Shown one piece after another: positions 7,404-52,000 of a stretch of 64,000 bases of DNA (within the stretch, counting starts at the first letter, position 1; each line of letters starts with the position of its first letter). This DNA comes from Glandiceps talaboti (Eukaryota; Hemichordata; Enteropneusta; Spengelidae): the NCBI RefSeq assembly GCF_964340395.1, contig NC_135554.1, positions 7,396,475 to 7,460,474 on the forward strand, given 5' to 3'. The notes under the pieces are model-generated. The model made no database searches and had not been told where the DNA came from. It saw only the letters and a program-made list of their open reading frames with translations. Made by a program: the position numbers and the translations under genes.

Positions 7404-7502
<99 letters not shown>

Positions 7503-18700: not shown

Positions 18701-19894
18701 TGGAGATATTCTGCTAACGGCTTTTGGGACCTGTGGCCAATTGTGTCGATTTTCAGAATTGAAATTCTAGCATAATACTATACTAATTTTACTCACGTTT
18801 TGTATCAGCTGTTGCTGCGTTACTTCTAATACTGGTACAGCAACTATTTTCGGCAACAACCTATGGGGAAACAATTAGTTGCCAAAGTTGTAAGTCAAAC
18901 ACGAAAATTACACACTCGACCCCTTTTACCTTGGAAGACCATGTATACTATTTAACTAAAATTGGTCTACAGAACAACTGGGATAACCTAATGATAGTAG
19001 GAGATGCCTGTACATGTATAGGTTGGGCAGCCTGGATTGGGCATTACAATACTTCGATGTGTGGACTCAGCTGTTCGATGGGCTATTCCAGAAGCATAAG
19101 GCATTGACAATTCTATTTGACTAAGGACATTTTTTACGTCGACATAATGAATCAGATTCGCTTTTCTTTACCTGCAAGGTATAATTAGTGTTCGGCATCA
19201 GTTCTCCAATTTTATAATACACATTTTTACTGGCATCAGTGGTGACATCGCTGTTCAAGATGTATCTAACTTGACTGGCAGTACTTTCGTCCTTGTCTGT
19301 TTCCCAATAGTGTATCACGTAAGATATTAAAATACCATTTGGACACTTTGGGGGATTCCATGTTGCTTTTATTTCTGTGTCTGATACTCTTCGAGTCTGC
19401 AAATTTAATGGCATCGATGGCTCTACAACAAAGACAACACGATAAATACATAAATAATCAATAAAACGAACCCTACGTTGCATCGTCTGACAAACAGGGA
19501 AGCTTTTCTTGACTCGTATTCAACGTCGAAAGCAATGATACAAAATTAACACATTGAAAAGTACAGTGAATCAATCCATTAACCGACCCTACAAACCGTC
19601 AACATCAACATTTTTTTAAATTATAAAATTGATTAATTTCAACTATTAACATTCAACGAATAGAAATAAACATACAATAGCAGAATACTGCATTAAATCT
19701 AAATTCATCTAAATATTTAATGTAATCATATAACATGATATATATATATAGTTTATATGAAAATGGTATGACTATAACTCAAAAGACAGTGTGCGGGTAG
19801 AGATTGTCAACAATGTGTTCAGTGTATAGACAAAACTATTACACTCTGCCACTGCGGTATAGAGCACTGTCTTAGCAGATTGATACTCACCGAG

Positions 19895-19968
<74 letters not shown>

Positions 19969-22900
19969 ATATATATCTATACAACCAAGACTTATTGCCA
20001 GTCACGTGATTAGCAGCCACCTTTGAGTTTTATTTGGTATTTTTGCAACATCATCTCGAAATACAGATACGTCTACAATTATAATTCCGTACATTTAATT
20101 TGTGCCACACTAGTACATTTCTTTTCATCCCCATTTAAATTATATAACGTCTCAACAACAAGTCTTATAAATTAATATCTTACCATCTTCTCTTGTTGTT
20201 TTGATAACCACACTAGAGGATCCCATACCGCTGTTTGAAAATGGTATGACTGTAACTGAAAAGTCAGTGTGCGGGTAGAGATTGTCAACAATGTGTTCAG
20301 TCATGTTCGAGGTGAGACTCTTGGGACCAAATGTTATCTTATCTCCACACTCATATCCGGATACTTGTTCAAATACTAATTCATATCCTTCCAGTGGACA
20401 ACTAAAGTTTTCAGGTTTAGACCATGTTGATCTAATGACAGAGGAAGACTCGACATTGGCTGTAAGGTCACTCACTTTTGGTGGTACTATTAACATAAAA
20501 AGAAAAGTTTACGATAAGGAAAAGAATAGGTTTCTTTTAAAACTGCTAATGTATTTATATAAATGTGTTATTTGTTGTGAATATGAAGTAAAGAATGATT
20601 GCCTACTACGATGTTCTAAAATATATGCATACGACTTGAAATTGGTATTGGCAGGATTCAAGAGATTTGTAATCTTATTTTCTCAAACCCATAGGTGTTA
20701 TTTCTTCCGTGACACTGCGAAATAACGAATTCTGGTTTGTTATGATGGACTGACATTTTTTCAGAGTAGTAATAAATATTCATGAGTAATGACGTGATGA
20801 CAAACCATATTTGTTATGTTGTGCAAGCATGTTCACCGTACGTGTATCTAAGGCAGATCGTGGACTAATTATAATTCAACTCTGGCTTATACCTGACTTG
20901 TCATTGTGAACGAATGTCAATGTTATAGGGCCATTCCCACGAAGTAAGATTGTTTTCTGACGGTATCAAGTGAGTCAAAAAGGCAGATATAACATGAACA
21001 GTAAGTGTTGACAGATACGTGCACTGAGTTAATGTGAACGGAAGATTTAAAAGACCCATGTAAAAGTTACTAATGTCATTTAAATCTACTAGGATAACCA
21101 ACATTTGATGGAGATAACGAGTATAAAGTAAGGACCTGGAAAGATTTGTTGAAGATTGATATTTAGGGTTGATAAACGGACACTAGCACTGAGTACTAGT
21201 AAAACTGGATGCCATGAATGCAGTCCCGTAGTTCCAGAGTCATGTACCCAGAGAACACTGTGCTAAAAGGTCGTACTTTTATAATGTTCAGAACAAATTC
21301 AGTTCCTTGTAAAGTCAAGAAAAGTATTTTAAACAACATTTCAATAACTACAGGTTGATATTACGTTTACCTCGAGAGAATTCGCATGAAACGGCCAATC
21401 TCAGCTTGTTGTACCCTACATGTACGGCTGTTGTACTAACTTACTACAAACTCACAATCGTATAAGATGGTATACAGCATCAATGAGAAATCCATTATGT
21501 CACAAACCCTAATTGATACTTCCACAATTTTATGAGTCGTTATTTTTCTGTCCATGTCATTCCAATCTTGTAAGTAGGATGAAAACAAAATCAGCAACAA
21601 GAACCCAACCCCAACTTGTCCAAGTCATTTTTCAGTGTACGTACTAGTATCTTGCCAAGATTCTGTATATCAAGTGGTATGCGTGAGGCAATCCGGTTGA
21701 CTGTAGTGTTGATGTACAAAGCCACTGTGAGAAATACTGCTTTGTATATGGACGAAACCACGGCCTCGTGGCGTTGAGTCTTGGGGGGTGCAGTAAAAGA
21801 GGCCATGGTTTACGATGATAGGTATTCTGAACCCATGTGAATGGTACTTTCCAGTTATTGATAATGTATGTGATATATATATGTAAACTAGTGGTTGGTA
21901 TATATAACATGTTCTGTTGCCTGTAAAAGCAATGACATGGTGAGAAGAGGCACTGCAATCATTTATTACAGCAAATTGACGAATTGTTAAGTTTTCACTC
22001 TAGTATATCACTGTCATTGGCTAGCAACATTAGCTCCTTGTGAGACGGAAATCAAATAAGAAAACGCAAACAAATAAACAAACAACAAATAAAACAAACA
22101 AACATATGCACCAGTAAAGGATGGAAAGGAATAATAGGGACTCATTTGGACATTGTATTGCAGCAGGGTAAAAGCTTTTAAATTCCCTGAAGCGTTCAGA
22201 GGATGCTTTATAAAGTTTATAAATCAATCAATTAATTGAATGTTGTTTGATTAATGTTGATTTCAAATCACCGTATAGCATAGTTGGTAATGCTAGGTTC
22301 AATGACAAACTGTCTGAGACTTTGTTGAGGTATACAAGAATTGTTGCATACACTCTACTGAAGACCACACTGCTAAACAAATTCAAAGTAGAATTCATAA
22401 TTAAAGGTGTTCTAATACCAACACAATTAAAGGTGTTCTAATACCAACACATTTCGTATAAAAAAAACAACAACCGTCATATACAACCAATACATGTACA
22501 CGTACAAAGTCTGGCAACAACATTGGAATGTGACAAAATCCCTTGTTCATAGGGCAGGTACAATTGATACTGCTGTGGAATATTTGACATGATAACAAAT
22601 TTGCTTTACTTGGAAGTTGGGATGATTTCTTGATATTATTTTTAATTGGGGTTACTTGATGTTGTATTTTATCTTTGGTAGTTTCGTTTCTTTCCCTTAC
22701 AGCAGCTTTTTGTGAGTTTCTGTTTGACAGAATTTTGCCTAACTATTGAGTAGTGTTGTAATTCCAAAATTTGTGTTGCTGGTACGAAAGAAGAGATGTC
22801 AGTTGAGGTTTAGGCGTTTACAGTATCTAAAATAGTGGACTCTAGTGAAAGTTATGGCGAGTTGAAAATACCCAAAAATAAGGCCCGTGAGCAGCCATTC

Positions 22901-25900
22901 AAAGTGTAATAGTTGCAAACTGAAGGATAGAGTATGCAAATGAGGATGTTGCGGACTGGCTGATTATGTAGAAGGGGTGCAGAATTTGGAATTGAAGTTT
23001 ACAACCCTGTTTCGAACAAACGCTTGTCATTTGGGCGCCCAATGCGTAGAATTATGAGTATAGCACATATTACATTGCTTGTTTGACGTCAATAGTGTCG
23101 GTCATAATGTTCATTAACATATTCATTTTTTATTCAAATTACAAAAAAAAATCATAAAAAATGAAAATGAAGACGTGCTGACTTGAAATTAACAAATCTA
23201 AGTAAGCTACCCTCTGTACATCAACACACCAGATATCAAAGCAATCTAATAAGTAGTATTCGAGGAGATGATGGAAATGTCATTTTTTTTTTTTTAAATC
23301 ATAAAAAATTGAAAATGGCACAGATCAACTTGGCATGAACAAATCTGAAGAGCCTCCCCCAAGGGAACATGCACACCAAATATCGAAGAATTCTGACCGT
23401 CACTTTCGGAGAAGATGATGAAAATATAAATATTTGACGGACACCAATGATTCCACCTATACTCTATACCTTAATACAACCTATACCTAAAGCCAAGCTT
23501 TTGTTACAAAGTATATAACTGTATTATAAACACAGTAATTGTATCTAGGTTACCCGACCGTGTGAGGTCTAATTGATTAATGAGATAGTAATACGAGCTA
23601 GACCATGTTATTACTTGTAATTAAGTGAACGTTTGCAAGTGTCACTACAAGTGATAAATCACAACTTTTAATGAATTCAGCCTTAGTAGAAAAGAGTATT
23701 TTCAAAATAGATTATCTCTGAATTAAATTAACTGTAGTTCATAAACACTTCCTATATAAGGAAAAGAATTGAAGTTTACTGTAAACATGTTATTTACTAT
23801 AACCATATTTGTATTACGGAATGAAGATTTTAGATTTGAATAAAATGTGAATGTTGGGTGTATGCTAATAAGCTACTTTACACGGGGAGAGATCTTGCGG
23901 GGCGGAAGAGAGCAACACGTCTGGATTTACGGTGTCTGATCTGCGTCGTAGTATGAATACTACGGGGAACTATTGTTTCTATCTAGTTTGAACTGCCGTA
24001 AGTGAAGGAAAACGAATTCAAAGCTCTCGTATTGTCGGTTTAAGCATACACCCACTTCACCAAAAGTAATATTCTGTGTGCTTGTGAGTTTATCCCCTGA
24101 ATACGTGTCCTGAGATTCTGGTACCTCTGAGATTGACTGTGTGCGTTTGAAGTTACAACTTGAATTTGGTCAATAACTATCAACACCAAAGACAAGTCTG
24201 TAGCACTGGTGGACGACTCCGGGCAGGATACAGTTATTCAAAAGACAAAATTCGTCAAAAGTGAGTACTTTGTCAAAACATTGTATGCTTCTCCGATCAG
24301 GCCGACAATTAAGAAATCTTGAACGGATACCACAAATTCCAATTGATATGGCAAACGTCGAACAAAACTTACAACCTAATATTCCTATTGAACAAAATTT
24401 GGAACCGCAAGATATTCCAGCTAATCCCCTTGATAATATTCAAAATCAAATTGAAAACGTAAATAATAGGCTGGAACGACTTCAAATGAACGTTGAGAAG
24501 CCTCCGTATTACAATGGCCGCCCCAATGAATCACCGGAACTCTGGTTAAAAAAATTCGACGCATTTGCCATACTGAAGAATTTAGATGACGAGCAGAAAA
24601 TTCAATATTTCATATTATTGATGAGAGAAGTAGCAGACAAGTGGTACTCAGATTTGGATCAAAACTTGGCACAAGATTGGAACGAAGTACGACCACTGTT
24701 TATTGCAAGATTTCATCGCATACAACCAAGATGGCTCACTGACCAACAATTAAGTCTAATACGACAACAGCCCAATGAGACAGTTGATCAGTTTTCATGT
24801 CGCTTGAGAGATGAATGTTCAAAGTCGAATCGTACCGCTGCAGAGATATTAAGTCTATTCTTACAGGGACTGCGCCACAATATAAAGATTGCAACCTTAT
24901 CTCGGGAACCCAACGACTATGAAAATGCGTTCTCAGCGGCCAAAACAGCGGAAATTATATCCCAACTACCGAATCACGACAGTCAACAAACTTCAAGCGA
25001 TACAACATTGAAGATGCCTAAGAATGGAATTGATCAATTATTGCGGGATGATATGGTGGAACTTACTTCACAGTTGAGTCAACAGAATCAATTGCTCACT
25101 CGTCAGAATGAAGATTTGCGACAACAGGTAGAGTCTCAAACATTTTCTGACAATAGGGCGGGATATTCCCCTCAAAGGTATAGAGATACTCAGTCTCGCC
25201 AATTTCAGGGTAATTATTCCACAGTAAGACGGCCCAATTTCAATGGAAATCGACCTATAAATGGCCATCAAAGTAATATTGATAGAAATCGTCCACGTTA
25301 TGGGGGACGAGAAATCATGTCTGGTAGACAAATATGCAGAAATTGTAATCGTCCAGGGCATATGGCACCTTCTTGTCCAGAAAATTATAACAGAGGCTGT
25401 TATTCGTGTGGTCAAATAGGTCACATTGCCAGAAATTGCCGTAAACCTGATCAGGGTAATTACTATTCAAAAAACATGTAAGGAGTGTGGAAAATACCAA
25501 AACCAGAGAATTTAATGTTTTTCACACGCCAAAATTAAACTCTGTAAAATCTGCTGATTTAAAGGTACAAAGTAATAATTTGATAACTGTTAAAATTTTT
25601 AATACAACTACTTCGGCTTTGGTAGACACAGGAGCAGAAATAACTGCGATCTCAACGAAATTTTTCAACAAAATTCCACAATTAAGACGATTCAAAATCA
25701 AGAAACCTATATACAAATGTGTAAAATTACCAAACAATCAGCAGATTCCTATTCATGGCTATGTAACAATTCCAGTACATTTTGATAATCGACTAATCAA
25801 TATTCCAGTGCATTTAATTAAGGATTTAGACAGAGATTTCATAATTGGGATGGATTTTCTGAAACAGCATAAAGCAGTAATTGATTTGGCACAACAGAAA

Positions 25901-28900
25901 TTACGTATCCGTACTAATACAATCTTGAGACCAGCAAAACAATATGTGATACCCCCTAGGTGTGAATGTATAATTTCGGCTAAGTTAAGGGGCTCATTCC
26001 CAAATGGTCTGATAGGAACCACTACAAATGTGACATCATTAAATTATTTAGGTATTCAAACAGCGAGATTATTAACATCAACCAATCATGATTCAGTTCC
26101 AGTCAGATTAATTAACGTTTCTGACGACCAAGTTACATTAGGGAGGCACATACGTTTAGGAACTTTTCAGCCACTCCCAGACGGCACAACTTTGCATAAT
26201 TTTGACATGACAGACAATAATATACATAATGAGACACAACCCTCTATGGAACGGGCAGAATTTAATTCCTTATTTGACTTCACTGGGCAATGCTCTGATT
26301 TGACGGACAGCCAAATTAATGACTTACAAGACGTACTATGGAAAAATAGACAGGCTTTTGTTGACAGATCAAATACTTTGGGCTATTGTGATATTATCAA
26401 GCATACAATAGACTTAGAGCCCAATGCCCGTGTAAAACCAAAGGCACCTTATAGGGTTTCGCCACAGAAACGTGAGGAAATAACAAGACAAATAAATGAC
26501 TTGTTAGATCAAGACATAATTAAACCTAGCACATCCCCATACAGTGCTCCGGTATTGCTGGTTAAAAAACCATCAGGAAAATGGAGGCTTGTAATTGATT
26601 ACCGTGAATTGAATAAGGTAACAATTCCAAACACATATCCATTACCTGAAACAAGGGATGTCCTCGAAACAGTCGGAAGTCAGTCGCCCAAATATTTTTC
26701 TACACTCGACATGACGAGTGGATTTTGGCAAATAGCTCTCGATGAGAAAGATTCACATAAAACGGCATTCGTTAGCCATGATGGTAAGTTTGAGTTTAGA
26801 ACGTTGCCACAAGGCCTGCGTAATTCAAGTGCCTCGTTCCAAAACACCGTAAAATTCCTCTTACGTAACTTAGAATTTCGCACCTGTATTTGTTACGTGG
26901 ACGATATTTTAGTGTACGCAAGGACGTTTCAAGAACACCTTCACAACCTTGACGTTGTCCTAGGTAGGCTAATTAATGCAAATTTGAAATTAGGTCCGCA
27001 AAAATGTACATTTGGGAAAAGGGAGGTAAAGTTCCTAGGTCATATATTGAATGAGAATGGCATTTCAACTGACCCAAAAAAGGTCGAGGCAATATCTAAA
27101 TTTCCAGTACCAACAAATAAATCCCAACTTCAATCATTCTTAGGCTGTGCGGGATATTATCGACGATTTATACACAACTATTCTAAGATAGCTAATCCCC
27201 TGCATAGACTACTTGTAAAGGATACAAAATTCATATGGGACAATGATTGTCAACTAGCATTTGATAAGTTAAAACTAGCATTGACATCAAAACCGATATT
27301 AGCATATCCACGATTTGACGAGAAATTTCTATTATATACGGATGCGTCAGCATACAGTGTAGGTTTCGTATTAGCACAAGTTCAAGATGGTATGGAACGA
27401 GTAATATCTTATGGAGGACGCACTCTCAATCCGGCACAACGAAATTATACGTGTACAGAACGTGAGGGTCTTGCTGTAATACATGCATTAGCTCAATGTG
27501 ATGTGTACCTACGAGGAAATGAATTCACAATAATCACAGATCATGCAAACTTAGTCTACTTATTCAAAATGAAAGCTCCGAGCGGTAGGCTAGCCAGATG
27601 GATTTTAAAAGTGCAGGGATACACATATAATATCATACATAAGTCAGGCGCTTCTATACCACATGCCGACGGTTTATCGCGACGTGAATATCCACCTGAA
27701 AAGTATCAAAACACTGATATAACATCAACAGAAAATTCTAGTTCAAATGAGATAAATTTTACACACGATCAGTCACAACTAACTATGAATGAAATTACTA
27801 ACATTCCAAAGATATCCGAGTTACAACTCAACCCACATGAGGATATCCTAACGGATATTAGAAATCTATACGACTCGCCTGAAACTGATATCAAGACTAA
27901 ACAGTCTAACACGATCTCTTCTAACACAGTGACCTTACATAGTGAGACAACTGATACTGATGACTTTAATGCCGACAACCTCTCTACTTTACAACGTCAG
28001 GACAAGCAATTATTGCCAATGATTAACTATTTAACTAACGATGGTGAATTACCTTCCAACACTAAACATGCTCAGAAAATAATACAAAGCAGTGACAATT
28101 TTGTTGTCCTAAACGGAGTTCTATATCATTACTGGTCCCCCACAGGCAAATCAGCTAAGGCTCGTGATTGTATCCGACAATTAGTACTCCCAAAATCCTT
28201 ACAACTATACATATTAAAGAGGCTTCATGATGATGTTACAGCAGGACACTTGGGTACTTCCCGAACAATACAGGCAATCCGGTTACGTTATTATTGGGAA
28301 AGTTTAATTAAGGACGTAACGACTTACGTGGCTTCTTGTGCATTTTGCCATTCACGAAAACATGGAATTCGCTATCGTTCAAAATTACTTCCGTTAAAAG
28401 TAAATGGTGTATTTGATAAGATAGGAATTGATTTTGTAGGAAAATTGACCACAACACAACGTGGAAATAACTACATATTAGTTATCACAGAATACCTTAC
28501 CAAATTTTGTTGGGCATTCCCAACCGCGGATTGCAAAGCGGAAACAGTTTCTCGAATACTATTCGAAAACATATTCTGCCAATTTGGATTCCCAAATACA
28601 TTGTTGTCTGACCAAGGATCAGCATTTATGTCTCAAATTGTTACTGAATTATGCAGATATTTTGACGTCATTAAACGATCTTCATCTGCGTATGCACCTT
28701 CAACGAACGGTCAAGTGGAGAAGTTGAATGGTTCTATACTTACGATGCTTTCTATGTATGCAAATTTATCTGCAAATGATTGGGACGAATATCTTCAATC
28801 TGTCCTTTTTGCATACAGGGCAACACCCCATGAAACTACTGGAGTATCACCCTTCTGTGCTCTCTTTGGCACGGAACCGCGACTTCCAGTCGATGTTGAA

Positions 28901-31900
28901 ATATTGCCAAAATTAGGTAAATCACGTAACATTCAATTTCATTTGGATGAACTGGCAAACAGAAGGAATTTAGCAATATCACTAGCCAAGGAAAACATTC
29001 AGAAAGCACAAGATAGAATGAAAACATATCATGATACAAAAAAGGCACGGGATCACATGTTCAAGGTAGGGGATATTGTATATTTACATCACCCTGCAGT
29101 CAAACTGGGTCATAGTCGTAAATTTCACCATCCTTACCGTGGACCGTTTAGGATAATCAAACAGGTTTCACCTGTAAATTTTGAGTTAGAACATATCACA
29201 GGAAATAAGAAATATCCTAAGGTAATTCATTCAAATCGACTGAAGCATGCCCGACTAAGACCCCAGCATCTATTGAGTAATAATGAAGAGACAACAACAC
29301 AAACAGATACTGAAAATCCTGCTAGGCAAAATAATCACACTACAACCAACGACACTAATGTCACCTTAATAACTAACAATGACGATGAACAACACACAAA
29401 TAAGACACAGTATCACATGAACTCAGAAACTGAATATTATTCATTTCCGGAAGCAACTTCAGGTTCACACACCAAGAGTCCAAGAGGACGATCGTGGCGC
29501 CAAACTATTCGTAAACGAGCTGAAATAAGGCGGGAATTACAAAATACTCGACAAAGTCAGACTAATGTAAGTTCTGATACCGCTGCAACTATATCTACCA
29601 CTGACAATGAACAGACATATTATAGCATTGAGAAAATAATTCGTGGTAGGTATAAGAATGGTAAACTTCAGTATTTAGTTAAATGGGAAAATTACTCCTC
29701 AGATTTCAATAGCTGGGAACCTATAGAAAATTTAAACCAATCTGCACTAAGGAGTCTAAAAGACAACCCCGTTTCTATATCTGGTTCACGAAGTTATAAA
29801 CGTCATCGTCAAGTAAACACTTAGGGTCAAATTTCGGGACACGACCTGTTTGATTGCTGCAGACGGTCTCTCACACAAGACGTTAACATATCGCATTGTG
29901 CGAAATTGATATTATTTGACATCTGATATCACATAGTATTACAAAGTTATTCAAGGTCAATTAATTGAGTTATCATTTGAGAGTGCCTGTATGATTGATT
30001 GTGAGTTAAAATTAAAAAGGGGTTTATATTTTCTGGAACAAAGACGGTTGTGATTGTGTGAGTGATTGGATTAGTCTGGCCAGACGCTGAATGAGAGAGG
30101 CCATGGAAAGGTACTTCTTCAATGATCACTCAAAAGAAAGACCGACATTTTCGAAAACAAAGTGATAATCGCTATATTTATATTTGTTAAATTACTCCTG
30201 TCATTGAAAATATTACTGTTTGATTACCACACAAGAAGACAGCAAATTCTTGACCAAAGTGGTAAACATTTTGTTTGTATGGCAAAACAGTCAGATTCAT
30301 TACCATATAAGTCGTTGGGCGTTAATCTCTAAATTCATTTTAAAGATGTTCCGCGTTTTCTAACTTTAGTCAATGATATTTAAACGGTCTTAATATTGCA
30401 TTACGTCTCTATGCCTGGGATTTTGCACTCCTTTGAGATTTAACGTACTATTCTAAACATGGACGATTGGTTCTACCGTGAAATTTATTATGAAAACGAT
30501 GTGTGGACAACGGATGCGTTGGATTATAACTGTTTATTAATTGAAGATCCATTTAACAGGGCTCTTAAAATACATCAAGATCCACTTCTTCTAGAAGCCC
30601 TCAGATTACAATGTATTGCTGATTCGCCAGCGTCGAGAGATTATACTCCTATATATGAAAATGTCGATGAATATTGTCCACGAAATACCAAATATTTCTA
30701 CAGAATGGATAAAGCGGTGCATCAAGCTATTAAAACAGACCACGGTAACTTTTTAGAGTACGCTTTGAACAACTATGACTTACGATTTCCTCTCAATTAT
30801 TATGATCACTGGCAAACACACATAACGGTAACGGCTTTGGAGCATCTCAGTTTAAATTGTTTAAAGGTCATATTCGCGTATTTTTCAAAATTCAATATCC
30901 CTTGGCATTCTTTGAAAGTAGATGTGCTCTGTCACGCATTATCTGAATGTTATAATTACCGTCATGTAGAACTTCATGATGCCAAGTTTCAAAGGGCACT
31001 GAAAATCTTAAAATATATCATGTCACATAAACAAGCGCTGACTCCTCACGCACAAGCATTATTCAGTTCCATGTACAAGATTGTCTCTTTGCGGCCATAT
31101 CTAAAACCAATCATTCCGTATTATAATCAACCAGATACCTTATTTGCTCAATGTATTTTCAAAATTAGACATTGTCTATCGTTAGGTTGGAGTCCAAAGT
31201 TCTATGGAGGTTATATAAATTTGTCTATTACAAAGCAGGAAAGTGAACGCCGAGTTTCACGATTACAACTTCCAAAATCTATCAAATCAGCTGTTTCGGA
31301 TTCGCGCACTATTTTCACTGTTGCTACTTTTCCATTACCTCCATTTCATCCTCATCATTATACCTATAATTGGTATAATGGCTATCCTAATACGGTAATT
31401 TACCCACAAATAGATGACACGTATTTATTTCCACGCAAACAAACAAACAAACAAACAAACGACAAAGTGAACTAATTAGAAATAGACATTTTTACATTCT
31501 TCGGATCTCATACAGATCACTCTTTCCAAATTCGTCATATTACCTTATATGGTAAGAAAAGTTTTGACTACCCCAGCCTCGTTATTTTCATAACAGAAGA
31601 ATTTCTATAATCGGACATGATCACACTACCCACTAAATACAATTGCTAAAAGTTTATTTCATCATTCACCATGGCACGAACAACTTTTCTATCTAAAATG
31701 GTTGGAACGACTTTCTTACTCTACATCACATTTGTACCATTTTTAAATGCCAAAAGTGAATGGTCTGACGATTTCGTGGCAACCGACGATATCCAACGCC
31801 TAAATTATGGAGTGATTTTCGAAAAAGTTGCAGTAATTGAAGCATCATCCAGCAGTTGGTCACTAACAATCGCAGTTCCGTGGCTAGATATCTCTGAAAT

Positions 31901-34900
31901 CGCAAAGGCTACGTCGACATTTCAACATAAACAGGTGTGTCTCTTAAATGTTACTGATGCAATGTGTGATGAATTCTCTGCTTCTATTAAAACGTTAAAC
32001 TATCGTATAAAATACAAACTGAAAGCATTACGACATTGTTTAAATGAACTGGATCGACTATCATCATTTAAGTATGGAAACAAGGGATTTGACAAAACCT
32101 TTGCCACCTCGGAACGTCAGTCTCGAGCAGCAATTATACCGATTATTGGCCAAATATCGAAAACTTTATTTGGAACAGCTACAACAAAAGATGTTACAAT
32201 TTTGGCTCGTCATATTTCTTCAGTTGAGGAGGAACTAACACATCAACGTACAGGTCTACGTCATTTCACATCGGATCTGAGTTCTGTACTCAAGATAACG
32301 AATCAACGAATTGACAATTTGTGGTCTTCTGTTAATAACACTTTTTCGACTGTAGAACAATTAACAATTGCAGTAGCAGACATTGAACGACTCCGTTTAC
32401 AAACACAACGACAAGAACACAGTTACCATCTTTCAAATGACCAATTTCATCGTTATATGTTGCTTTTAAATGCTCTCGATGACAGATCAAGAACATTGGA
32501 TGTTTTAATCAACAAAGCAACAGAACGCTTAATTGGAATGCAAACTCTACTGGAAGGTTATTTACCTCCAGAATTCGTTTCTTCTAAGCTTCTGGAAGAC
32601 TCGCTGCAAAATTTACAGGAAAATTTTCAAAAGAAATTCCCACAATATTCTCTGTGTCATTCGCATTCAAGCTATTACCATCGACAGAAAGGAGCTACAT
32701 TTTATAGATCTGGTCATAACATGTATATCAACATCCTAGTACCTTTATGTCGCCATTCATTGATTTTTGATGTATTTAAGGTAATTCATCTACCAATTCC
32801 ATCATTTCCTTTAGGAGATCATAACACAAATGAAACTGCCCTTGCACGATCTGTTACTGTTTTAAATAATTTGCCAGATTACTTTGCAGCCCAGCGAAAT
32901 GGGGAATATTTTCTAGAAATGTCAACAGCTGAATTTCAAACGTGTCAAGGTTTATCGATTCTAATTTGCCAACCACTTACGATTCTAAAACCAGATTTAC
33001 CATCATGCGCTCGAGCAGTAATATTGAATCAGCATTCAAAAATTTTAAAATGGTGTAATCCTCAAATGATTGTCCGTCATACCGGTATTCCAAAAGCTAA
33101 AGTACTTCGAAATTCACAAGTATTAATACAGGGTTCTTCGTCAGACTGGCATCTCTCTTGTAGTGACTCAATGGTACAAAAAATTGACAAGTGTCACTTT
33201 TGCATAATTACAATACCGTGTGGTTGTCTGTTATTTTCAAACCACTATTTCATAGATACATTGGCAAATAGTTGCCAGCAGGATCACAAGGTAGTATACA
33301 GTCATACTTTAAATGTACCAGTCCTTATGTCCTTGTATAGCACAACCCTTCCGAATTTGAAATTTTCCACTTTGAGTGAAACTCCCATGACTGTTCAATT
33401 GCCCCACATAAAAGTTATGGAAAATGAGTGGCAACAAACCTTGGGCAGGGAAAATAATATCAAAATCGATTTAAATCGTGCTGCCACTATGCTTCGTGAA
33501 AATTCTAAAGTTTTTCTCACGCCAATGGATCAATTTAAAGACGAAAATATCAAAATTAGTGATAGTTCACTGGATTTTACCTTATTCTCAACCCCGACTT
33601 GGATACCATTGGCATTTTCATGTTTTAACTTAGCACTAACAATCTATCTGATGTGGAAATTGAGAAATTTGAATATAACACTACAAATCCTAATGACTAG
33701 AAAAGTTGATTCGCAGCAAATTTATTGGTTTAAATCTACGATCCCATCGCCTACACAAGCATTTGAACCTACACAGAATACCGATTATATCAAATATATT
33801 ATTGAAGCACTGTGTATCTTTGCTCTCTGTTTCATATTCATGGCCACCTATAAATACTGCCTTCGTACAATTAGACAATATTGGCGAAAACTAACAAGTA
33901 AGAATAGAGATCATGAAGAGGGTCCTGGTGAGATGTCTAGCATTCCGATGCTACCCACTCAATCTAATGATAGTATGAACAATAGTAATAAGGACATGAT
34001 ACCCTTGACTGTCTGTACGATTCATGACAACCCCTTAGAAGGCCCCTTCATTCATGAAAATAAGGACGCACCTAATGCGACTATTGACATACCAGACGTG
34101 ACTGATACACGGTCTCATAGTGTTGATGCTAGTAAATCCAGCGCTAATAAGACCTTACGTACTCCGGTTAAACATGATAAGGCTAATTCACAGTGTGACC
34201 CCTTGAGTTTAACTTGGTTTACAATATAAAGGTAGCGTCACTGGAATTTTGATGGTTGACTATAGTCAATTTTGATTTCTGACTTTGAATTTATTATTAA
34301 TGGTACCTATTTATAATGATGATTTCAATTTTGACGTCAATTTGTAACATTTTATTGATTTTTTTTGTATAATTACTTTTGAACTTTATTACTTATTGAA
34401 ATGAGAACATTGAACTCTGGACGTTGAGATCATTTCAACTATGACTGTTGAAATAATATTGAACTCTACACTGTGAGACAATTTTGAACTTCTGATAAGA
34501 AGAAACATTTCAACTATGGACATTTTGAGTAATAATTAAGATAATGCGTTAAGATTAGATAAGAGATATTTTAATTTGTTGAAGACAAGTATTTAACGTT
34601 TATATAAGACACTTTTTCCATTTTAAGATATTTAGATAAGAGTGTTTACGATTTTGGATAAGTATATTTTAACTTTCAATGCCGACGTGTGTAATTTTCT
34701 GTCGACATAAGTGATTTCAATAATTTTATTAACATACTTGTATTAACATTCTAACATTTAAGTAATTTCAGAGACTTTGAACTTTTACTAATATTTTAAC
34801 ATTTTAACTACAACCAAAAACAACAAAAAAACAAAACAAAACAAAAAAAATAATTATTACCGATTTTCTATTCTTTGATTACATTTTACCTTACACAGAA

Positions 34901-36853
34901 TATCTTTGAATTTTGAATTTTACACAAATTATTAACATTTCTATACCTTTAATTACTCTTTTATTATTCTTTTCAATTTCAATTGCTTAATTGTTTTGGG
35001 GACAAAACACTATGGGGTAGGGGGTGGTGTTACAAAGTATATAACTGTATTATAAACACAGTAATTGTATCTAGGTTACCCGACCGTGTGAGGTCTAATT
35101 GATTAATGAGATAGTAATACGAGCTAGACCATGTTATTACTTGTAATTAAGTGAACGTTTGCAAGTGTCACTACAAGTGATAAATCACAACTTTTAATGA
35201 ATTCAGCCTTAGTAGAAAAGAGTATTTTCAAAATAGATTATCTCTGAATTAAATTAACTGTAGTTCATAAACACTTCCTATATAAGGAAAAGAATTGAAG
35301 TTTACTGTAAACATGTTATTTACTATAACCATATTTGTATTACGGAATGAAGATTTTAGATTTGAATAAAATGTGAATGTTGGGTGTATGCTAATAAGCT
35401 ACTTTACACGGGGAGAGATCTTGCGGGGCGGAAGAGAGCAACACGTCTGGATTTACGGTGTCTGATCTGCGTCGTAGTATGAATACTACGGGGAACTATT
35501 GTTTCTATCTAGTTTGAACTGCCGTAAGTGAAGGAAAACGAATTCAAAGCTCTCGTATTGTCGGTTTAAGCATACACCCACTTCACCAAAAGTAATATTC
35601 TGTGTGCTTGTGAGTTTATCCCCTGAATACGTGTCCTGAGATTCTGGTACCTCTGAGATTGACTGTGTGCGTTTGAAGTTACAACTTGAATTTGGTCAAT
35701 AACTATCAACACCAAAGACAAGTCTGTAGCACTTTCAGCTTTCGCTGACAGCGGAGCTAAAAAGTCGACAATATAAAGTTCACTACAATAAGGAAGGTAG
35801 GCATACATCGAGTCATTACCACGTTATAATGTTCAGCCTACAGAATTGTGTAAAGTATACCCTTTAAAACATTCATGTATGATGTCAAATTTTGTTTACT
35901 TACTTCCAGACCTTGTTGTCAAGAGTAACTGGTTACTAGAAGGGCCACTTCCTGCCATGTTATCCATTGTCATTGTTAATTCATAAGCTGTACAAGGATT
36001 TAGTTCTGTGATTGTCACACCAGTGTCGTCAGAGTCAGTCATTATAGTATCATATTCTGTATTACTTCCATTTATCCTGAAGTAAACCGTGTATGACGCC
36101 ACTTCATTACATCGAAGTCTAGCAGGTTCAAGATCAGCTTCGGCTGTCTGAAATCGAAAATCGTACAACAGTGAATGTCATAAGTCACATGTCTCTGTGT
36201 GGTATAACGTGGTCAGGACAAAAATGACCAACAGAAATGACCAACAATTTCTAAGTAATACCTGCTCTCCCGGCTTTTGAATAGGAAAAAAGCCATTCAT
36301 CAGAAAACTTCCTCAATATGAAGGCAGTGTTTCAAGTTACCAACTCTGTTTGCCAGAGTTCCTTGAAGAATTCAGGATATACTATTACTAAACACACCAA
36401 TACTTCCTAAAAGCTGAACTACAGGGATCCGAGCATTATGTTATGCAGATCAATGTGTCAACATCGTTTTGGTAAGATTAAATGTAGATTGACCTTACAT
36501 CATGTGTTTCGCCAGATACAACATACACACGCCATAACACATGAATATTATAAAAATAAAACAATGAAAAACAACTTGTTAGCAATCCCTTTAACAAAGA
36601 CAATGGACGTTTAATTTACAATGGTCGGTATTGATATACCATGTAAATATTGACAGTGACATGTGTATGTATATATACCCATACCCAACCCATTGTCCAT
36701 CTTTAAACCACTTGCAAAATACGGATTAGAATGATTTGGTTCCACGTTGCTCACCTCCCATGTGATTTGAATATATGATGACGTCACAGTGCTGGCTTGA
36801 TTGAGATTTGGCCTACCCAATGGAGCTGTGTATAAAATAATAAAATGAACAAA

Positions 36854-37364: not shown

Positions 37365-40300
37365 AAATAATGACTAGAAGAGATGACACAGTTCAAAAGT
37401 CGGCCTTACTTCCAATGCCAAGATGTGAAGCGATGAGGAACGTTTCAATGTGACTTGCACACCTTTATCAGGCTCAGCTGTTACTATAACTACCTGACAA
37501 ACCTGGAGTAACTGCGCATGTATGTTGTAAACAAAATAGAACTTAAGCTTGATAAACACGTGTCTAAAAAAGAGTGCAGTGCAATTGTATAATACTGGTA
37601 TAGACTAGTCTGGAATTGCTGTTTGTTCGTAATCATTAAGTCCTTGTGGGTACATCGATCTTGCTCTGTGTATCCAGATGATTTCCGTTTGTTCCATTGT
37701 ATCAATGTCTGGTTTTGGGATATGGCAAATGATTGTAGCTGTAAACGCATTGTCGGATATAGTGTGTCCTGACATCCGGAAATAGGCACAACATAAGGAC
37801 TTCTGTCTTTTCTATTAGTTCTTATGTTCGAGCGGTGTCCATTGATTCGTTTGTGGAAATGTTGAGTAGTTTGACCGATGTATTGTATGTTGCAGGTACG
37901 GCAGGTTATGACATATAATATATTACATGACTTGCAATTGACTTCATCCTTGATGTGATAGCTTTTTCTCGTGACTGTCGATGTGAAAACTTTGGTGTCT
38001 TGAATTATTGAGCAGCAGGGGCATCTTGGTGTTTTGCAAGGTTTGAAACCCAAAGTAACTTGCTCTGACTTTGCGTGTTTCAACCGGTTTTGATGAAGAA
38101 TGTCGCCAATTGTTGCTGGTTTTCTGTAGGCAATGACTGGTGGTTCCGGCATGACTTGTTGCATACGAGTTGACGACTGTAGTATAACTTTCTGAAGATG
38201 TGGTTGGCGTGGGTCGTAAGTTGTAACCCAGGGCATTCTATTCGTTGGAGTTTTCTGCTGGTATTGTAGCAATTTGGTGCGATTAGGGATGGAGGCACGA
38301 GCAGACTGTGAGTTGATGCATTTTTCAGAAAAACCACTGTTCTTGAGGAAGATGTGAAATTCTGAAAGTCGTTTATCGCACCATTCTGGTTTGCTACAAA
38401 TGCGACGGATTCCGAGAGCACCTGGGTAGACGATGGATATAAAGGTATGCCGTTAAAGGTAAAACAAAGTATAAAGGTATAACGATGGGAAGCGATGGGT
38501 TTACTGTAGAGATCCGTTTCTAATTTATTGTTGTCTAGGTGTATATTGACGTCGAGGAATGCAACGTAGGTTAAGCTTATTTCTGCGGTGAATTTAATTT
38601 TCGGGTGGCGGTTGTTGAGTCGGTAGCTGTTGAGAAGGCAGCGAGATCATCGATGAACCGATCCGTTACTTCTGGATGATTTGGTATAGTAAAGTAATAT
38701 TTTCTCATCCACTATCTCATGTATATATTTGCATACGAAACGGCAAATGGTGTCCCCATAGCTGTACCTGAGACCTGCCTGAAGTAGTTACTATTGAATG
38801 TGAAGAAGTTATTCTCTAAAATGAATCTGGCTAATAACGCTATGTTTTTTTTATGTCTTATTGATTGGTAACTGAACCTGTGCGCAAGGCGTCTTCTACT
38901 GCTGCGATGCCTCCATCGATGTCAATATTGGGGTAGAGTGCCACTACATCTATAGCTAATATGTGTATGAAAGGGAGTGGGACCATTATAAGTTGTTCAA
39001 CATGATAAAGGAAGCTTGTGGTGTTTTTTACTAGCTCTGTGCAATACAGATGACAAACGGGTGAACGTTTCCAATCGACCCAAAGAGAGGCTTCGCGTGT
39101 AGGGGCTCCCACCTGGCTGCATATTGGTCGTCCTGGAGGTAAATGACCTGTAGCTTTGATCTTATGGATTTTACCGAGGATGTGGAAGTAGGCACCTTTA
39201 CGATTAGGCCAGTTTAAAATAGCTTCAGTTTCCTTGTCTGACAATTTGAAATGAAAAGATATTAAGTCGGAGAGTTGGCTTTGGACGTTCGTTGATTGGT
39301 CAGATGCTACGCTTTCATATGCAGATATGTTCGATAGTTGGGAGATGCATTCCTTCTCGTAGTCTGCAGCATTCCATATCACTGGCTCCTCCCTTGTCTG
39401 CACGACCGATCACAATAGAATTATCATTTTTCAAACATTGAGAGCTCTGCGTTGTTGTAAATTAAGACTACTCCTAATATCTGGCACCTCATGACTTTTG
39501 ATCGTGCGATATACGTTTTTAGGATTGATAACACTCAAGTGCATCGTTACGATTTAGTGGTGGGTTACGGTTGGAATGAATGTAGAGTAATGGTGGAGGT
39601 GCTCATTGGTGATTCAGAATTTTGGTCGAAAAAGAACTCTTTCCAACGAATGCGCCTAATATAATTACTAACATCTGCCAATTCACGTGCATGCTTATAA
39701 AGTGGCGGTGGAGGACGGAATGATAATGGGAGCTGAAGAAGAGATGTTTCATGTGGAGACAAAGAGCGATTACTTAAGTTCAGAATGTTATTATTGTTGA
39801 CCGAAAGTGAGCTCAGTTTGCGCATCTCGGGTTGATGTTTGTGATTACAAGCTTTCCGTCTTGAACAAGGAAAATGTCGATTTTTACGCGTTTCATGGGA
39901 AGATCTTGAGGTTCAGTGGACGTCTTCATATTTACAGTACATTTGTCATTAATTAAAGAAGACAGTTTCTTGTCATGACGACGTTGTATTTGTTTTCTGA
40001 GTGTGCCACATCTGTTAGTAATTTCACGGCGTTTTGAATTGTATTCGCCACCAGTTGATAACTTCAATGTATTCAGGGCAGTCTTGTTCTGTATTCTTAA
40101 TTCAGGAATGTACTGTTTTTCATATGTAGATATGAGGAGATAGTTCAATTTAAGTGATGTGTCATCAAGCACTGAGCGCCAATCAGAAAGCAGGCGGGGA
40201 TCATTTACAGGTGGCGTAGGGACTGGCAGTTGTAATGCATTGGTGGTTATTCTCTTTTGTTGACAATATTTGGAGTAACGTAAATGTTCAACAAAACGTG

Positions 40301-43300
40301 TTAGTTTCTTTGATGTTCTGATCGCTGCAGAATACTCTGGTGTATAGATCATAGTGGCAATATCTGTATCCGATCCAAGAAAACTGAATTCACAGGGTCT
40401 CGGCAAGGTTAAGTTCAGATAAATAGATATGGTGAGACACGCAAAAATACAGACCACTAAGACTTGGGAGATCCGAACCGCTGTTGTTGGTGGATTCATT
40501 AGGATGTAAAGTACAAACATATATATATACCAAAATAATGACTAGAAGAGATGAAACAGTTCAAAAGTCGGTATTACTTCCAATCCCAAGATGTGAAGCG
40601 ATGAGCAACGTTTCAATGTGACTTGCACACCTTCATCAGGCTCAGCTGTTACTAACATGACAAACTTAGAGTAACTGCGCATTTTTATTAATTTATGGAC
40701 TGCATTACTGTCAAACGTGATATGAAGATTTCTATTATAGATCGAGTATTTATTGCTTTAAAAATACACTTATGATTTTTTAGAAATATTTCCAAATTTG
40801 AGAAATGAGCATACACGACTATGAAATAATCATTTACGTCAAATTCCTATTGAATTTATATATTTTTTTTACAACATGTTTTACTTGAAGAACATGTTTA
40901 ATTTTAAATAGAATGTGCCCGTTGACTGTTTGCCTTTTCCGTTAATTATTTGAAAGTAATGTTACACATTCAACGAAACTTATATTAGATATGATCACAT
41001 TTTACTAATACTATCTATGATCTTTGAAAAAGAAATGTGACCTCAACACTAAACAGTTGTAAAGTTTTAAACCTTTCAATTTATTTACGTTGTGGTTTTG
41101 ATACAGCAATGCTAATACTGAATATTTAAGAACGCTTGCTCTGTAGGATAACTCATCAACCTTATTAGTACTAAATTGTTTCCTCCTATGTTGTCTTAAA
41201 TTTCTAGGAAGGAATGAGTCTAAACTGGTGATTGATCCAAATTTCTCTAGTGTTTTCAGGAAACAGGGTGTGTGAAAAGGTTAGCTTCAATTATGTAAAT
41301 TCACGTGTGAATCTTGTCAGTTATGTACATTTAACTGGTTATGTCACTATAGATTGCTGAAATGTCAGTTCTTTGGTACGTTGCCACATTGATTAACAGA
41401 TTGCTACCTTTGATTAATATGGCCTCTAATAGTGTTATGTTACCATGTGCTGCTCTCTGTATATTATCGTGACTGACTGACTGACTAACTGAGTGTGAAG
41501 TTAGTACTTAAGCTTGCTGGCCACTTTTATGTATGTAATGTGTTGGTGAAATTGCTGATTGGTCTAAATTTCCGTTTGGTGTTTGGACCAACTGATTCAC
41601 CTCTTGTAGAAGGTCATGCACCCTGGTAAATTTATTTGGTAGATGACATTTTCTTAAATTTTGCTCTTCATCGTCTCCCATATTTTAAAATCATATATAT
41701 ATCCATATGTTTTTACTTTAGATTTACCGGTCCCTTTTCCTTTCCCCGGTATCATTTCTGTGCGTTCTGTAATGAATTACTTTCCTTGCATTGTTTTTTT
41801 TTTTTTTTGCATTTGTATTGGTTAATTAAGCAAATTCTGTATCCTGTGTAAATTGTATTTGTGTCATTACGATACATACATATATGTCAGCTTATGTCAC
41901 CAGACTATATATCGACACTAAATATAAGTATGATTTGACATGGGAGGAGAATTGCAATGTAGAATATAATATCAACTTACAGTCGCATTTAGTTGTCGCT
42001 CTTACATATGGATTTAAAGCACCATCACCACCTTCACCAGGTCTGTAGGTCCTTACAGCAAACATGTAGTCAGTGTAGGGTGATAAACCATCGACCACTA
42101 AAACTGTTTGACTGGAGACAACTTGAGGATACGCAGCATAGTCGTTCTCACTCGTCTTCTTGTACCATACTTCGTACTTTTCTATCGGACCATCACCAAT
42201 ATCGACTCCACGTTGCCAGGTATTCCACTTTACCGTAACTTGATACGTTTCGATATTTTCTATAAGTGGAGCGTCTCTTAACACTGGTTGAACTGAAATA
42301 TACCAAATATGAACACATGGTTACTTGTTATTTTCTGAATAGCTGTACCTGTCATGTCTGTGTTTTTGAAATGATTACTCTAAACTCATGCCACTATACT
42401 AAAAGTCACATTTGACCATGTCTTTCCACTGGAGTAAATCTTGAGCAGAGTATGTGTAAAGGTGGTGAGTATGAGACGAAATTGAACCATTGGCTTAATT
42501 TACCCGGTGATCTATCCCCTGGGCGTTGTAGACAGTCAAAAGTGGCACTGCGTCTCTTACTGCACGCTGGACAAAAGCTGGTGGTTAGGTGTGTCACAGG
42601 TAGGGTAAAGATTGCAAGGGTAAAGGTAGATAAATTGGGGTTTTCTTGTAGTGTTTGACAGTACTTCCCAAAAGGAAACTATACTACTAGTTGGCTCTTA
42701 ATTGTTTATGTACAAATTGTCTGTGCAGCAAAATTACGTAGGCACAGAAGCATGTAAGGCTTTATATAGCGCCATCTCTTGACAGACGAGAACATTTTTC
42801 ATAATCTCAAGGAGCTATTTTCAAAGCGACTGTTTGCCATTTTCTCACAGCTACACAGCGTCAAAGGGGTTTAAGTAATGTTGTTTTTAATTAAAGAATA
42901 GCATAATATGTCAAGTTCAATGTGATAACAGCGTGTGATAAAATTGATTTAATACATTGTACATATAGGAAACCAGATCTAAACAGGATAAGTTTGAAAA
43001 AGATAAAACACAAGCTTTTCGAATATTTATATACATATTATCATATATCATATATCATCAGAATTTCAAAATGCACAGCTCTGTATTAGTAAACTAACTA
43101 CTAGATTACACGAAATTTGAGGGTTGTCTTATTTGTTATTATCGATATATGTAACAATTTGAAACTACATGTATATGAAATTGGAAGCTTCCAACATATT
43201 TCTTCTGATTACCAAACATTGTTCTCAATGTATCAATGCAAACGACGTATTATTATATAAATACGTCAACAACCTTTGTAAGGTATGCGCACTCTGTTCA

Positions 43301-47800: not shown

Positions 47801-48982
47801 GGACTAAATGATATTACTTAACTAATTATCAATCAAAAATGATAATAAAGACATTGAATATCTAAATTAAAAACTATATAAAAATGACCAGTGTATTGTT
47901 GTTTTTGATGTATGTATCAAATCATATGAAATTTGATGAGCGAGCACTCTAAATGTGCGCTTTTTGACACACCGTGCATATGCAATTTGAAGCTTGCATT
48001 TTGAGATGTGCCCTAACCTAATGATCAAAATTCATTCATTATGTAAAACACGAAAAATATAATACACTTGCACGTTCATAACATAAATGAATACAGAAAA
48101 GAATATGAAACCCAAAGCTTGAAATCTAAAGACACAGCTTAATTACCGAAAACCAATAATCCATGCAAATGATTCATTAAAACTAAAAGCACTGTAAACT
48201 AACTCCATACAACATGTACATATGTGAATTGTTACGAATAATATATGACATTTGAAACTTACTTTCTTACATTAAAGCCTAGATACAAAAAAAATCACGC
48301 AAATTATTAATTAAACCTAAATTAGCTATGCCAATGGGCTTTATTAGGTATGTGTACTTTGTTATGGTGGATATATGTACCACATTATATGGAATTTGCA
48401 GCGTGCATTACTTGTTATCAAAAGTATTAAAGTTATTCATAGCAATAGTAAAATATACATGTCAACAAACTTCATACAGCATATAAGCATTAATATGATT
48501 GATAACAGGATTATGTGAAATTTGGAGCTTGCCATCTTGCCCTAATTGCCAATAGGCATGGAAATTCCACATTAAGACTAAAATGCTAGCTAAACAGGCT
48601 TCCTATGTCTTGTGTGATTATTTTGGTTCATGTATGTACTAAATAGTGTATAATTTCAAGTGCCAATTCTGTATGGCTTTATTACAGAAAGAAATCGTTG
48701 ATTATGGAAATTAAACATTTCCGTCAATAGATACTCTAACTGGCTTTGTTAATTTTAATATAGATTAACTACTGAAAATCGTGAATTATGCAAATAACAA
48801 ACAAAATTTAATGTGTTTTGTTATAGTTAAGAAATATGTACGTATGTATTCTTGTTACTAAATATTATTCATTGGATGTTTACCAAAATCTAATCAGCTC
48901 TTGGGCTTCTTTTGGTACCCAATTTCATTAGGATCAATGCAGTATTTTTTGACATATCGCGTCCATGGACAAAGACACCCGC

Positions 48983-49019
<37 letters not shown>

Positions 49020-49030
49020 GGCACAGATAG

Positions 49031-49093
<63 letters not shown>

Positions 49094-52000
49094 AAGAAAG
49101 AAAGAAAGAAAGAAAAATAAAGCATAACATTCCCTATCGGGACGTCAATATGAAAGATATTTAATTATAAATCAAGGGCATCAAAATGTACTCGGGTATA
49201 CTTACTTGGCAGACTGCACTGTGGTACACCACTGCTAACAATACTGTCATAACAACAATCAGCATCAAGACACGTAGTTTCTAAATCATCGTGCGTATTA
49301 CAGTCGAATCTATTGCTTTCTTCTTCAACCTTGTCGCAAACCTGACCTATAGATTTATAATAGATGCATGATTTATCATGTACAATGTAAATGATAGCTT
49401 ACAGTGGAAGTAAAAATAAAGCAAACAAAACAAGCAGTGAATACAAATAAACCGACCACAATCTTATGTCATCCATACAATAAAACAAACATGCAACCAC
49501 ACAGTAATGTATAAAACACACATTCACACATATTTGCGTATGTGGTATTCTAACCTTTGCACTCGGAATAGAAGCTTCTTTTCCTTCTTGGTTACTGAAA
49601 GTTTGTTATGAAGATTGTTTGTTCTTTTGATCACGAAAGTGCTCCACGGCATATTTCACTTTACTATAGTCCATGGGCCAGAGGGGGTTACCGTGCACCC
49701 CCCCCCCCCAAACCTCCAACATAGGTATTTGTTGTTCAATGGAGTCTACTGAATAAGAAACAAAATGTTAACAGTGAACATTTTGGGATGCACTACCTGT
49801 TTGGCCTCGATTTCATATTACATGTGTGTCCCGGAATGGCGTCAACAAGTTGAGGGTAAGGGTAACACATTGTCTTCCATATGACACATGCAAGCACGGA
49901 CTTTATTATCCGTTATATATTTGGAAAGCTTAGGAAATTTCCTTTCAAATGATATAATGTTTGCCATACATATGCCGAGAAATAAAAATTGTGGAGGCTT
50001 TAAGTTGTCGATTTTTAAAAAAATTTTCAGCATAAACTTTTCATTCTTTTTTTTTTTAAGTAACATGATCTGATACACATAAGGGATGTTTTTTATTCAG
50101 CTGAATGAGCTGAACAAGGAAAAGTAGGTTAACATTGAACATTTTGTGGGTTATTAGTGATTGATGATGAGCGTGCTCATACATTTTTCTGATTGCTAAA
50201 ACATATATCTTTACAGGAAATATACTTTCTTTGAATAGGTAGCTTGTTATGTTGACATAACTATTTAAGGAAAATATCCATGGCTATTTAAGGAAAATAT
50301 CCTAAGATTGCTGAATGTAAATGGGGTAGGGGTATGATGTCTTCCTATGTGCTTAGTACATAATGCCTACATATGTAATCAATGCAGTAACACGGTTTTG
50401 TGATTGATAGATTATATTTCTTAAAAAAAAGAAATTGAATTCACTTTGAATGTCTAGCAAATTATGTGAAAATAAATGCCAATGAATATGTGGAGGCTTT
50501 AAATTGCCGATTCCTGAAAAATCAACATTTTTCCCCGTAAAAAGACATAAAGTTTCCATTCTTTGTTAAATAACATGACATGATACACATAAAGGGTGTT
50601 TGTTTATTTAGTTGAATGAGCTGAACAAGAAAAAGTAGGTTAACATTGAATATTTTGAGGGTTATTAATGATTTCCCCAATTAAAAGCAATACTATACGC
50701 TATTATTTTGAAATACTGACAGTAGGGGGTAAGGGTAAACTATCCTCTTCTGTGCTTTTTATTCAGCATCTTAGGAGCATATTAATACATTTTTTTCTGA
50801 TTGCTAGAACATATATCTTTACAGGAAGTATACTTTCTTTGAATAAGTACCTTGTTATGTTGACATACATGCCAAGGATCAATCTCAGGATATTTTCCTT
50901 AAATAGTATATCTTTGATATATATAATGGGTAATAAAGTCCGTGCTTGCATGTGTCATATGGAAGACAATGTGTTACCCCTACCCTCAACCTTTTGCCAT
51001 TCCGTGACGCACATGTAATTTGAAATCGAGGCCAAACAGGTAGTGCATCCCAAACTTTTCACTGTTAAAATTCTGTTTCTCATTCAGTAGACTCCAATGA
51101 ACAAAAAATACCTATGTTGGAGGTTTGTGGATGGGGGTGCACGGTAACCCCCTCTGGCCCATGGACTACTAGTCATGAAAGTAAACTGAGTAAGTCAAAA
51201 GAGGTTTGAATACTAGTGTCTACCATGGGCGCCAGCAGAGTTGGGGTTGGCAACTCTGCAGATGTCATTATCTTTCATGTTCGTATGTACGTACATAGAT
51301 TACTGTCGTGCGCCCTCAACGTAAAACATTGCCTTAGTATTTATATGTTCATTGTATGCCTTGAACCGTAGCGAGCATAGGTAGCCCACATACATGACAA
51401 TATACTGTCGAATAAACAAGTATGCCGCGTGAAAAGGACAGTCAGCGTCAGATATAATCTGTATAGTGGTACACTATCTTGTAGATAATAATATATACGG
51501 CCCGGAATTTGAAGTGCGCAAATCAGGTTGCTTACATGGTGCTAAGTTATGGTTATCTTGTTTAGGCCCTACCAAAATATATTTGGTTCCGTTTACCGAA
51601 GTATTTCACTGTCGACCCTAAGAACCTTTTTATGTGAAGTCTCGCCAGAGTGGATGCGGAAACTGTCATTAACTTAAACATGTAAAAATGACAATATACA
51701 ACCTATAAAACAATAACACAGAGACCATATTATAAAAAGAAAAATTGTTCTTCATCCCATGAACATTATACCACTGGACTAAGCGTGCGGAAGTGTTATT
51801 ATTGTATATTAACTTGAAAAAAGGAGGATATGCATAGCTGTGAGTTCAGAAAATATCCCAGTTCCACTTTTATTATGTACTTTCAATGATAACATAAGAC
51901 TAACTATTTAATGTAACAGAGCTGAGCTGACTATGAACCATGCTAACTCTGAAACAACTCTTAATAGAGGAAGTGACGTGATGTTATTTTGAAAACATTC

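Follow-up and report, generated by a model that had tools for sequence, protein, structure and literature searches.

In a 64,000-nucleotide stretch of the genome of the hemichordate Glandiceps talaboti (contig NC_135554.1, positions 7,396,475 to 7,460,474; hereafter the window), a Ty3/gypsy long terminal repeat (LTR) retrotransposon carries an additional gene, orfX, between pol and an env-like open reading frame (ORF). The gene is intact, fixed in position, selected in two element families, and possesses SOCS-box-like sequence. On balance, we favour the reading that orfX is an accessory gene of this env-bearing element that encodes a substrate receptor for elongin B/C-cullin ubiquitin ligases, through which a partner protein would be removed. 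The element is described here as an env-bearing Ty3/gypsy element with a probable ubiquitin-ligase-adaptor gene. The features on which this reading is built are as follows:

30459..31475, plus strand: orfX, accessory gene, 338 residues, full length at 4 of 6 family-A and 14 of 15 family-B loci
30546..31133, plus strand: residues 30-225 of orfX, with five helix pairs predicted in an ankyrin-like arrangement by model and structural alignment, putative substrate-binding part
31137..31166, plus strand: BC-box-like motif, residues 227-236, from motif patterns and the host-box profile
31254..31295, plus strand: Cul5-box-like motif, residues 266-279 (VSQLPLPKRIQQAI in family B), from motifs, the Pfam segment scan, and the host-box profile

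The gene, its copies, and its selection

The first-pass annotation had described an intact 338-residue ORF between pol and env, and this description holds: orfX possesses 338 codons with no internal stop and is flanked by pol (25487-29824) and the env-like ORF (31671-34229). Its stop-to-stop frame of 343 codons is far longer than expected by chance, since in 2,000 random sequences drawn from a Markov chain and matched to this interval in composition, the longest open frame had a median of 86 codons and a maximum of 198.

Copies were sought in the host genome (590 Mb, 47 contigs), and their counts are lower bounds. There are at least 41 matches to orfX of family A, to which the window copy belongs, and at least 46 to that of family B, many of them being fragments. 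Family A comprises at least 6 loci (L001-L006) and family B at least 15 (L007-L021), with orfX proteins that are 57-58% identical between the two. The gene is full length at 18 of the 21 loci, including L004, where the tail is altered, and L007, which is shorter by one codon; the three broken copies are damaged toward the C terminus, either past the SOCS-like box (L005) or inside it (L006 and L021). At every locus, orfX is bordered on either side by an open frame of the size expected, and the start sequences of these frames identify pol upstream at 20 of 21 and env downstream at 20 of 21. Older or partial relics are present elsewhere in the genome. Thus, in related elements, the gene is not decaying and keeps its place.

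Between families A and B, the proportion of non-synonymous differences in orfX (pN) is 0.264 and that of synonymous differences (pS) is 0.737, giving a ratio of non-synonymous to synonymous divergence (dN/dS) of about 0.11 with dS saturated; in the flanking stretches that the loci include, namely the last part of pol and the first part of env, the ratio is 0.25 and 0.08, respectively. The corresponding protein identities of these flanks are 66% and 84%, so that orfX, with the lowest identity, is the fastest changing of the three. Within family B, 14 full-length copies compared with one reference copy display 17 distinct codon changes, of which 8 are non-synonymous (one being a stop one codon early), as against an expected 80% (P=0.0026, which is approximate, as the copies share history). 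These comparisons point to purifying selection on orfX both between and within families. Separately, between L001 and L008 pS is 0.74 in orfX, higher than the 0.58 of the first part of env or the 0.50 of the last part of pol, a pattern such as an older or mosaic history of orfX might leave.

Retroelements are known to contain captured sequence, according to the available part of PMC5408684, and one might suppose that orfX is a passenger, that is, host DNA recently picked up with no function for the element. We consider this very improbable. The same position is occupied in two families of only 58% identity, most copies are full length, dN/dS is low, amino-acid changes among the copies of family B are fewer than expected, and there are older relics; copy number, position, and selection in the main rule a passenger out.

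The SOCS-like box and the helical domain

A SOCS box is about 40 residues long and is made up of three short helices. The consensus patterns for BC, Cul5, and Cul2 boxes were taken from the available parts of PMC13342108 and PMC4812663. Both motifs named at the first pass are where it placed them, T-L-x3-C-x3-I at residues 227-236 and L-Q-L-P-x-x-I-K from residue 269. Family A agrees with the BC-box consensus, and DLFALCVFKI of family B fits except at the first position, though a BC box is weak evidence alone; as sole evidence it was rejected, the loose pattern (Lxxx[CAS]xxx-hydrophobic) occurring in 73-81% of 20,000 shuffles per protein. A BC box and a relaxed Cul5 box in that order were found in 0.16-0.2% of as many shuffles, and the strict Cul5 box in 0.03-0.06%. 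This strict form (phi-xx-LP-phi-P-xx-phi-xxx-phi) is exact in family B, which has LPLP; the window copy and family A have LQLP, and host SOCS boxes with LQLP (L063) and LNIP exist. The Cul2 pattern phi-P-xx-phi-xxx-phi (from the available part of PMC13342108) also fits both families by eye, and the LPLP of family B makes cullin 5 the favoured cullin.

By profile, the picture is mixed. When C-terminal segments of 76 and 79 residues were scanned with hmmscan against 24,736 Pfam families, SOCS_box was the sole family given (E 0.0063 and 0.0081), with the bias that the segments were chosen with the motif known; the best-matching stretch covers the Cul5 half only. A search of the host genome with PF07525 listed 45 places, at least 38 of them over the cut-off, and from 26 of these 38 a host SOCS-box profile was built. 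It scores 15.4 bits for family A and 14.0 bits for family B, with both halves matched in order, and the maxima among 2,000 shuffles each were 13.4 (A) and 7.4 (B). Run against the best 120 of 654 pol relatives and 208 window frames, the orfX frame included, the same profile places orfX at the top (15.3 bits) and the window's pol frame second (10.9). For the alignment to the ASB9 box, 11 of 3,000 whole-protein shuffles of family A scored as high as orfX itself, and none of 3,000 of family B did.

The ankyrin-like helices described at the first pass upstream of the box find no support in the sequence and some in the model. The AlphaFold model of orfX is of low to middling confidence (predicted local distance difference test, pLDDT, 51.4; predicted template modelling score, pTM, 0.50) and resembles ankyrin folds on structural alignment, by which residues ~30-225 are probably an ankyrin-like helical domain. 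A single-sequence model with a pLDDT of 36.8 was discarded as a basis for any claim about the fold.

Several results weigh against a receptor of this type. The C-terminal segments fall short of the Pfam cut-off for SOCS_box (17.2 and 16.8 bits vs 23.5), the whole orfX proteins of families A and B returned no Pfam family, ankyrin included, and the 45 places listed with PF07525 include no orfX copy. The ankyrin profile gave 0.5 and 0.2 bits, inside the range of shuffles, which rules out ankyrin repeats recognisable by sequence. The loop between the halves of the box exceeds that of host boxes by ~18 residues, and owing to this loop the box spans ~58 residues, its three helices being predicted at low confidence. 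In the relics, the BC half is partly kept and the Cul5 half less so (LKLS, LNLP); among copies and relics together, the Cul5 half varies more than the BC half. Taken with the segment scan, the performance of the host-box profile against shuffles and other proteins, and the motif residues of family B, a C-terminal SOCS box in orfX is moderately supported, so that this part of the first-pass proposal stands by profile, below the Pfam cut-off, and its ankyrin part does not.

In the mechanism that we favour, a partner protein would be bound by residues ~30-225, a helical and probably ankyrin-like domain, and the C-terminal SOCS-like box (about 225-288, with its longer loop) would engage elongin B/C together with cullin 5 or, possibly, cullin 2. 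The partner would be ubiquitinated and then removed, to the benefit of the element. By analogy with lentiviral Vif, one would first suspect this partner to be a restriction factor, that is, a protein of host defence, and another protein is conceivable. We infer binding, ubiquitination, and the identity of the partner, as well as a descent of orfX from a host ASB-like gene.

The same data could be read differently. The SOCS-like residues may be coincidental, with orfX an accessory protein selected for a different task, such as RNA export, particle assembly, or spread. Neither a whole-protein family nor a PDB match is found for orfX, the SOCS matches are sub-threshold, the genome-wide Pfam search did not bring it up, and accessory proteins of quite different kinds occur in other Ty3/gypsy elements (available part of PMC11952523; Cer1 CERV). 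Coincidence must, however, account for the ordered occurrence of both box halves in each of two families, above 2,000 shuffles each, and for SOCS_box being the sole Pfam family given for the segments; we hold this alternative to be unlikely, though it deserves serious attention. More doubtful is a working BC box that acts as a decoy or regulator, blocking host SOCS/ASB ligases through elongin B/C or a cullin, or tuning an element protein such as Env, with no host defence protein destroyed. Such a role would suit the more variable Cul5 half, the long loop, and the 38 or more host SOCS-box places open to competition, whereas the complete Cul5 box kept in family B and the separate large helical domain maintained under selection speak against it, and we judge it improbable.

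The element and its surroundings

One LTR element occupies ~23502-35731 of the window, in the order LTR, gag, pol, orfX, env-like ORF, LTR, with the following features besides orfX:

23502..24205, plus strand: 5' LTR (TGTTAC...GTAGCA), matching the sequence from 35028 onward with no difference over 706 bp
24261..25481, plus strand: gag (capsid, zinc knuckles), Pfam Retrotrans_gag 8.4e-10 and zf-CCHC 8e-11
25487..29824, plus strand: pol (protease, reverse transcriptase, RNase H, integrase, chromodomain), Pfam RVT_1 1.9e-34, RT_RNaseH 1.1e-31, Integrase_H2C2 5e-18, Chromo 3.7e-12, and RVP_2 6.2e-8
30056..30125 (bounds by eye), plus strand: noncoding block upstream of orfX common to families A and B, from the inter-family alignment
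31671..34229, plus strand: env-like ORF, 852 residues, from features read off the translation
35028..35731, plus strand: 3' LTR, direct repeat of the 5' LTR

The LTRs are put at 704 bp on two grounds, their TG...CA termini and CTTT, a possible target duplication of 4 bp read from the sequence at 23498-23501 and 35732-35735; the end was set at CA because this duplication then flanks the element. As judged by its LTRs, its gag, and a pol in the order protease, reverse transcriptase, RNase H, integrase, the element is a member of Ty3/gypsy (Metaviridae), and it is called young because both LTRs are identical. The name env is inferred from the translation, since no Pfam family passed its cut-off in the whole-protein scan: the N terminus is hydrophobic, an RQSR site is followed by a hydrophobic stretch, and further hydrophobic segments lie close to the C terminus.

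The conserved noncoding block holds a perfect 12-bp palindrome, GTCTGGCCAGAC, at 30074-30085. In the gap between orfX and env (31551-31576), GGTAAG and, soon after it, ACTACCCCAG (nearly identical in family B) are kept in both families and look like splice signals. Elsewhere in the window, minus-strand ORFs at 37490-40520 look like the decayed remains of a Penelope-like element, including a GIY-YIG-type end, and 8-base periodic simple-repeat arrays are found at 7341-7537, 19833-20023, 48950-49133, and other positions.

On contigs C9, C14, and C23, the host genome also shows ankyrin-SOCS genes of about 370-450 residues in single open frames (five read, L061-L065), as well as SOCS-box places in close pairs. 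On C14 (15025-15028 kb and 15067-15078 kb), ~40-50 kb separate two SOCS-box places, one of which, L061, was read as an ASB-like gene, from a group of decayed orfX fragments, which may be chance.

Relatives, comparable systems, and significance

Homologue searches were limited to relatives with shared short exact words or patterns. Among 5.8 billion proteins, no homologue was found with orfX A by itself as query at E<=1 (770 candidates) or with the alignment of A and B at E<=10 (2,599 candidates). The viral_contigs collection gave no confirmed relative of orfX, env, or pol, PDB gave no chain matching orfX at E<=10, and PHROGs gave no match to orfX A. For pol, relatives are numerous, with 654 matches at the protein level at E<=1e-50 and an identity of 61% for the top one. 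As no homologue of orfX was found, orfX would be lineage-restricted, missing from the searched collections, or too diverged to detect. Among the papers listed in the literature searches, judged by title and abstract opening and with most subscription journals outside their reach, none showed an LTR retrotransposon bearing a SOCS-box gene; the sole SOCS-type protein of a retroelement met there was lentiviral Vif.

Lentiviruses are known to carry accessory proteins that redirect a cellular ubiquitin ligase at host factors, and hepatitis B virus has one as well; the same literature searches showed none in an LTR retrotransposon. The vif gene, too, sits between pol and env, and Vif contacts cullin 5 via a zinc-binding part. 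It recruits elongin B/C and cullin 5 (available part of PMC4812663) and, in a source likewise available in part, requires CBF-beta. Both Vif and orfX are accessory proteins of reverse-transcribing elements, and the likeness would lie in the proposed action rather than in descent. In place of these features of Vif, orfX combines a SOCS-type Cul5 box with a helical domain, and host, family, and target differ. No relation to Vif was seen in the PDB search, which included no comparison aimed at Vif.

ASB-type ankyrin/SOCS proteins are similar to orfX in having helical repeats followed by a SOCS box and the spacing P-x-T/S-L-x3-C/S-x3-I-R, but orfX differs in its lack of a sequence-recognisable ankyrin repeat, its longer loop, and a 50-residue tail after the box. 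In African swine fever virus, MGF505 proteins join a SOCS/VHL-like box to predicted ankyrin repeats, and MGF505-1R recruits EloB and Cul5 (available part of PMC13342108); they are likened to orfX by description and differ in belonging to a DNA virus and in having the box at the N terminus. Extra genes beside gag and pol occur in other LTR retrotransposons, namely the ORF3 types of bdelloid rotifers (PMC5408684) and sORF2 of the MDG1 group (PMC11952523); in the available parts of these papers, the products are an esterase, an exonuclease, and env-like and small fusogen-like proteins, and no ubiquitin-ligase adaptor is described.

A more specific form of the receptor reading, which we put forward tentatively and regard as less probable than not, is that a Vif-like strategy evolved independently, with an ankyrin-like/SOCS receptor, ASB-derived or convergent, destroying a host factor that restricts retroelements. 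If true, the ligase-hijacking strategy would have arisen again in a very different branch, and a host restriction system would be engaged in an arms race of the APOBEC3-Vif kind. orfX could then be used as bait, and its binding partner would be a candidate animal defence against retroelements.
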